NCBI RefSeq assembly: GCF_014696135.1
Contig: NZ_JACJPP010000011.1
Coordinates: 186,001 to 250,000 of the forward strand
Direction of reading: 5' to 3'
Origin: Nodosilinea sp. FACHB-141
GTDB taxonomy: Bacteria; Cyanobacteriota; Cyanobacteriia; Phormidesmidales; Phormidesmidaceae
Length of the DNA: 64,000 nt
In this document: positions 62,436 to 63,044 of the stretch, piece by piece
Numbering within the stretch: position 1 is the stretch's first letter
How the letters are laid out: each line of letters begins with the position of its first letter
Position numbers and translations under genes: made by a program
Notes under the pieces: generated by a model
Told to the model about the DNA's origin: nothing
The model's database searches: none
Seen by the model: only the letters and a program-made list of their open reading frames with translations

Positions 62436-62506
62436 GCGGGTGTAGTTTAGTGGTAAAACCTTAGCCTTCCAAGCTAATGATGGGGGTTCGATTCCCCCCA
62501 CCCGCT
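62436..62506 (+). tRNA. tRNA-Gly(UCC)
   Basis: A 71-nt gene with 7-bp acceptor stem GCGGGTG/CACCCGC and discriminator T. The D arm is GTTTAGTGGTAAAAC. The anticodon stem TTAGC/GCTAA has loop CTTCCAA (anticodon TCC, reading GGA), and the T arm GGGGGTTCGATTCCCCC has the conserved TTCGA. CCA is not encoded. A transposon end begins 8 bp downstream, and a matching guide inside that element targets this gene. Confidence 0.97.
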
Positions 62507-62513
62507 TAAATAG

Positions 62514-62613
62514 TGTACAGTGACTCACTATTTGTCATCGGTGACGTATCAGTGTCGTTGAGGCCAGATTTAATGTCATTGAGACATAATTGTGTCGTCA
62601 AACCGCTGGTGAC
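62514..62613 (+). mobile_element. Terminal region of a Tn7-like, type V-K (Cas12k) CRISPR-associated transposon remnant
   Basis: The sequence starts TGTACAGTGAC 8 bp after the tRNA and continues with TGTC-containing repeats at 62533, 62553, 62574 and 62593, at a regular 19-21 bp spacing, then GTGAC at 62609. TGTACA termini with TGTC/GTGAC transposase-binding repeats at two helical turns are the hallmark of V-K CAST ends, which insert beside tRNA genes. No tnsB, tnsC, tniQ or cas12k lies in the window. The interior continues rightwards at least to the CRISPR repeat at 62777. Confidence 0.85.
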
Positions 62614-62641
62614 ACATTGTTTGTTTTCTAGGAAGCCTTTA

Positions 62642-62695
62642 GAAGGCTAAGGCTTTACCTTTCAAATTGCTTAAGGCCTTGTCGGCGCTGCTTTT
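62642..62695 (-). ncRNA. Putative delocalised homing guide (crRNA) matching the adjacent tRNA-Gly
   Basis: On the minus strand, a repeat-like 3' end TTTGAAAG (62666-62659) is followed by GTAAAGCCTTAGCCTTC (62658-62642). This 17-nt sequence matches tRNA-Gly positions 62453-62469 at 16 of 17 positions (18 of 20 if extended). The target is preceded by AGTG (62449-62452), a GTN-type PAM, and lies 61 bp from the transposon end. Short, delocalised homing spacers are known for V-K CASTs. The 5' part of the repeat (to about 62695) is not clearly conserved. Confidence 0.8.
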
Positions 62696-62740
62696 TAAGC
62701 CATAATCTCTAGAATTTGCCGAAGTGGCAAGGTTGCAGGC

Positions 62741-62777
62741 CTTTCAACCTCCCCTGTTCAGGGTGGTTGATTGGGAC
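62741..62777 (-). CRISPR. Single 37-nt type V-K-like CRISPR direct repeat
   Basis: Read on the minus strand, the 37-nt unit starts GTCCCAATCAACCACCC and ends CAGGGGAGGTTGAAAG. Its length, the terminal GTTGAAAG and the internal CCACCC/GGGGAGG-type pairing agree with V-K repeats as I remember them. Only this one full repeat is present; 75 bp further on the strand lies the TTTGAAAG end of the guide. The sequence after it (62740-62716) does not match tRNA-Gly contiguously, sharing only AACCTT. Confidence 0.7.
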
Positions 62778-62984
62778 GGCAGCTTAAATAAACAATGCCT
62801 TCTGAGGCGAGTTTAGGGCAAAGGGTGAGCGTTGAACGATGAATGGAATAGCTAGCGGGAAGGACACCTTGCTGCATCCACAAGGGATAACCATTGACGT
62901 TGTGTAGCTGTAGGGTGCGATCGCCCTATTTAGCCTCATGTGACCTGCCGGGCTAGCCGAGCAAAATAAATGTACACTTACCCC

Positions 62985-63016
62985 TTGACTCTCTAGCTCA
63001 CTGGAAGCTTCACCAT
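62985..63016 (+). promoter_or_regulatory. MerR/CueR-type promoter upstream of copZ-copA
   Basis: TTGACT (62985-62990) is followed 20 bp later by CACCAT. The spacer CTCTAGCTCACTGGAAGCTT contains an imperfect dyad (CTCTAG/CTGGAAG). The long 19-20 bp spacer with a central dyad is typical of MerR-family metal-responsive promoters such as those of CueR. Position directly before the copper genes supports copper control. No regulator gene is in the window. Confidence 0.6.
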
Positions 63017-63044
63017 AGAGCCATACGAGTTCAAAGGCTTAGCC

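Follow-up and report, generated by a model that had tools for sequence, protein, structure and literature searches.

Features downstream of the tRNA-Gly(TCC) gene

The window, that is, the whole 64-kb stretch analysed (G000:C11:186001-250000, where G000 is the 5.9-Mb genome holding it and other G numbers denote related genomes), contains a tRNA-Gly(TCC) gene followed by the features collected in Table 1, and beyond the host flank come copZ and then copA. In cyanobacterial type V-K CASTs the left end lies downstream of a tRNA gene, 37-nt repeats are read towards that end, a truncated repeat of ~12 nt (R*) carries a 17-nt anchor spacer to the tRNA, and the PAM is GTN, 46-82 nt from the left end (PMC9938897). 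For attachment they mostly use tRNA genes, and the guide for that site is truncated and separate from the array (PMC11406308). Every feature surviving in the window agrees with this published scheme.

Table 1. Features between the tRNA-Gly gene and copZ (window positions)
Feature	Positions	Strand	Basis or remark
tRNA-Gly (anticodon TCC), attachment site	62436-62506	+	ARAGORN; Rfam RF00005, 76.1 bits
GTG, fits GTN PAM, immediately 5' of protospacer	62450-62452	+	sequence; PAM rule PMC9938897
17-nt protospacer GTAAAACCTTAGCCTTC within tRNA gene	62453-62469	+	16/17 to window anchor spacer
Transposon left end, starts TGTACAGTGAC	62514-62638	+	82% identity to G024 left end
Anchor (delocalised) spacer GTAAAGCCTTAGCCTTC, 17 nt	62642-62658	-	16/17 to tRNA-Gly 62453-62469
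Truncated repeat R*	62659-62670	-	alignment to G024
Segment between canonical repeat and R*, homologous to G024	62671-62740	-	alignment
Canonical 37-nt V-K repeat	62741-62777	-	search, alignment to G024, fold
32 nt of spacer length between repeat and host flank	62778-62809		common only to G000 and G013
Host flanking DNA upstream of copZ	62810-63044		homologous flank in G006, G011, G021

The first-pass annotation had described an isolated 37-nt CRISPR repeat of type V-K character, and the unit is indeed found at exactly 62741-62777. It reads GTCCCAATCAACCACCCTGAACAGGGGAGGTTGAAAG on the minus strand, ends 3' in GTTGAAAG, and folds as ((((((.((((.....)))).)))))) at -14.2 kcal/mol (z -2.1), a hairpin shape matching that of the array repeats of the congener G024 and of a tRNA-His locus in the same genome. 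A search allowing up to 3 mismatches found no second copy in the window, and the number expected by chance was 0. Similarity to known V-K repeats, on which the annotation had staked its reading, is borne out by ~92% identity to the array repeats of the intact G024 CAST and by arrays in named Nodosilinea and Phormidium records (mostly Nodosilinea), which carry the same repeat type and point to a Nodosilinea-like cyanobacterium as the host; viral contigs searched with the repeat pattern gave no match. A suggested search of the rest of the genome for the same repeat in an array returned a similar one, the nine-unit tRNA-His array on contig C16 (~89% identity), but no array of identical repeats. 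With the length, terminal motif and hairpin of a V-K repeat, the unit is, by its sequence, a type V-K CAST repeat.

The annotation had also assigned the repeat to an adjoining delocalised guide, and this guide is real. The anchor spacer, preceded by TTTGAAAG, departs from the tRNA gene only at guide (seed) position 6, and it is accompanied by an R* that is damaged, reading GCAATTTGAAAG where G024 and G012 have GCGAGTTGAAAG and being without its GTTGAAAG core; the anchors of G024, G012 and G016 match the protospacer at 17/17 positions. On the plus strand, TGTACAGTGACTCACTATTTGTCATC begins at 62514, downstream of the tRNA gene, and the measured distance from the GTG PAM to the left end is 61 bp, within the published range. 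The left end contains predicted TnsB-like sites at 62520 and 62541, and the 82% identity to G024 holds for the whole of 62504-62779 against the left-end and guide region of that genome. A terminator-like hairpin (TGTGTCGTCAAACCGCTGGTGACACA-TTGTTTGTTT, 62591-62625) lies inside the left end on the tRNA strand. A 9-bp direct repeat, GCTTAAATA, occurs at 62504 and 62782; its reading as a target duplication or a scar of recombination was rejected, because its left copy is GCTTAGATG in G013 and G024 and it includes bases outside any possible 5-bp duplication.

Missing parts and a junction shared with G013

Inspection by eye of the translated ORFs (100 aa or longer) between the repeat and a point ~31 kb further on revealed no recognisable cas or tns gene, an absence supported by genome-wide searches for Cas12k and TnsB; on this contig, the Cas12k closest to the remnant lies 512 kb away. 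The earlier observation that neither an array nor cas genes stand beside the repeat thus holds. The next 30 kb lack an array beyond the one repeat, a tracrRNA, cas12k, tns genes and a right end, and the locus is without the set found together in a complete CAST element (cas12k, tracrRNA, tnsB, tnsC and tniQ). Within ~31 kb beyond the repeat neither a right end nor a 5-bp target duplication was found, nor were paired TnsB-like sites or another transposon end, save one isolated motif (L009:15207). Duplex energies between guide and tracrRNA do not differ from those of shuffled controls, and this is equally so for the native G024 pair.

The 32-nt junction that follows the repeat is probably the remains of a neighbouring spacer. 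It had no match among plasmids, and of the 65 genomes compared within the family just G000 and G013 carry it. Homology of the host flank begins at 62810 for G006 and at 62853 for G011 and G021. The copper genes were considered as cargo of the element, a reading left unsupported by the presence of the copZ flank in congeners that have no remnant.

The same stump is found in G013 (C1:251998-252476) at 94% identity, with a deletion junction identical base for base, which points to one deletion before the two genomes split. The G013 copy differs in its tip (TGTGCA instead of TGTACA) and in 4 of 37 positions of the repeat, and its R* core GTTGAAAG is intact; the mismatch at guide position 6 is common to both genomes and absent from G024, G012 and G016. 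Differences between G000 and G013 amount to 4/37 in the repeat and 8/124 in the left end, compared with 12/563 in the adjoining stretches (Fisher p 0.013 and 0.017, respectively), a contrast that rests on 12 differences in two related regions, was put to the test once these had been seen and involves small numbers. The upstream stretch alone has 2 changes in 226 positions. The anchor 17-mer is identical in the two genomes, which carries little weight for 17 nt at ~98% identity. Judged by these alignments, the changes in the repeat, left end, R* and anchor are drift and not retention.

Related elements in the genus and in the same genome

An intact counterpart occupies the same tRNA-Gly(TCC) gene in the congener G024 (C10, about 874.7-897.1 kb), where a complete V-K CAST comprises a repeat array (about 11 units), a Cas12k scoring 885 bits against NF038191 (cut-off 150 bits) and a TnsB at C10:875088. 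Its right end (L114:8674) is flanked by ACATC, which on the opposite strand reads GATGT like the bases beside the left end, and this identifies a 5-bp target duplication. The repeat, anchor, R* and left end of the window align end to end with this element. The G024 CAST abuts the left-end scar of an earlier insertion, located at the same 5-bp site, and a newer CAST placed immediately beside an old end speaks against a solo end conferring lasting target immunity. Back-to-back ends separated by a few bases are seen at L114:8640-8720 in G024 and at about L117:4247-4300 in G011.

A comparison of the tRNA-Gly(TCC) locus in 28 congeners (L053-L080) revealed sequence resembling a transposon end in 15 genomes, 57-64 bp away from the shared PAM, most of them with bare scars. 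The end is accompanied by an array and Cas12k in G024 and G012, by the anchor and one repeat in G000 and G013, and by the anchor in G016, which has no Cas12k anywhere in its genome; most other carriers have the end alone, and G008 runs off its contig. The 15 end-bearing congeners form a decay series at a V-K attachment hotspot, with an intact CAST, a one-repeat stump, an end with guide and a bare end as stages within one genus at one tRNA. V-K CASTs are not known to encode their own machinery for excision and resolution. This series, together with the case of re-insertion beside an old scar, could offer material for studying the loss of V-K CASTs and for dating insertions at an attachment site. 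Among other observations at this tRNA, its 3' halves occur far from the full gene (L046:300-355 in G006, G017:C12:365626-365671 and G004:C374:1413-1458) and resemble those left by site-specific island integration into the same tRNA, and seven or eight congeners have a different insert after tRNA-Gly, with a terminator-like CCCCTGA...TCAGGGG.

Two further V-K elements are present in G000. The one at tRNA-Val(TAC), 48 kb long and apparently intact (C11, about 760.2-808.2 kb; L016:3218 to L038:17157), has a left end, an anchor to tRNA-Val, a short array, a Cas12k of 707 bits (C11:761360-763309) and genes taken as tniQ, tnsC (TniB, AAA) and tnsB (Mu-type C-terminal domain; TnsB at C11:806286-808157). 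A large defence-like cargo lies between its cas12k and tniQ-tnsC-tnsB. The element at tRNA-His (C16, L012:944-2830) is wrecked, retaining a left end, an anchor spacer to tRNA-His, nine repeats and a C-terminal Cas12k fragment with a stop.

Origin of the remnant and its place among V-K CASTs

We consider it very probable that the repeat is part of the fossil stump of a V-K CAST at tRNA-Gly(TCC), the rest of which was deleted before the split from G013, and that the stump is now drifting. A V-K CAST would have inserted 61 bp downstream of the GTG PAM in the tRNA gene, with the repeat at 62741-62777 as the array unit nearest its delocalised guide. A deletion reaching from within or immediately beyond this unit to a point in the host DNA on the upstream side of copZ would then have taken the rest of the array, the tracrRNA, cas12k, tnsB-tnsC-tniQ, the cargo and the right end, and run into the host flank, leaving the left end, anchor spacer, R* and one repeat as a non-functional, drifting fossil. 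The first-pass annotation had pictured an array collapsed to a single repeat plus the guide; one repeat and the guide do remain, but the loss would extend to nearly the whole element and part of the host flank. The deletion is reconstructed from the remnant and its junction and the event itself is seen in no relative; none was found to have an intact element beside copZ and copA in the same gene order, and G024 has other DNA beyond its element. Since the stump has lost the promoter of tracrRNA and array, which lies downstream of cas12k, we infer that the stump is not transcribed, and likewise that it has no present function.

That the stump has instead been kept for a function of its anchor crRNA or solo end, for example Cas12k guidance in trans or a role as 3' context of the tRNA, is very improbable, though such retention would also explain the left-end scars in so many congeners. 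Slightly less credit is due to the narrower proposal that guide and repeat are still in use, supplying a crRNA to another Cas12k in trans or solo-end target immunity at tRNA-Gly. The genome does have an intact Cas12k, and the 17/17 identity of the anchor in G000 and G013 fits such use; against it stand the damaged R* core in G000, the anchor mismatch in the seed, the missing tracr-array promoter, a sole promoter-like match on the repeat strand that is at chance level (2 found, 0.8 expected), the drift of the repeat and the old scar in G024, which did not stop re-insertion at the same point. Just as doubtful, and for the most part refuted, is a miniature, non-autonomous two-ended element that a CAST at another locus of the genome would move in trans. 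For this an intact V-K CAST is available, and a TGTACA hexamer at 62971 could mark the other end, but the hexamer is followed by CTTAC and not by AATAG, the 5 bp that a matching duplication would show, is ATATAC in G013, and was rejected as a second end. No second end was found, the TnsB-like site pairs being only those at 62520 and 62541; BLAST with three right ends matches only the left end, and the left end of the intact tRNA-Val CAST belongs to a different sequence type and matches nothing in the window. A non-CRISPR hairpin (terminator or REP-like, for instance) resembling a repeat by chance would fit a single copy in the window but is virtually discounted by the zero chance expectation at 3 mismatches and the 92% identity to true arrays, and is refuted by the G024 alignment, in which the unit is placed with respect to guide and end just as in the intact element.

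The fossil stump has little significance as a lone repeat, which is the ordinary decay, of a known kind, of an already described system; mildly interesting is the genus-wide decay series (15/28 genomes) to which it belongs. With V-K CASTs of the ShCAST/AcCAST/AnCAST type it shares the tRNA site, the left end downstream of it, the 17-nt anchor with R*, the GTN PAM, the 46-82 nt spacing and a 37-nt hairpin repeat ending in GTTGAAAG that reads, as their arrays do, towards the left end. Unlike a complete V-K CAST, it retains only the tRNA-proximal ~265 nt with one repeat, and is without tracrRNA, cas12k, tnsB, tnsC, tniQ, cargo and right end. The tRNA-Val and tRNA-His CASTs of the same genome have the same layout and mechanism, and the latter a similar array repeat, but they differ in tRNA target and left end, and the tRNA-Val repeat is widely divergent. 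Closest is the G024 CAST, with the same tRNA, the same left-end position and the similarities in left end, guide region and repeats given above, from which the stump differs in lacking the ~11-repeat array, Cas12k, TnsB, right end, GATGT duplication and fully matching anchor.
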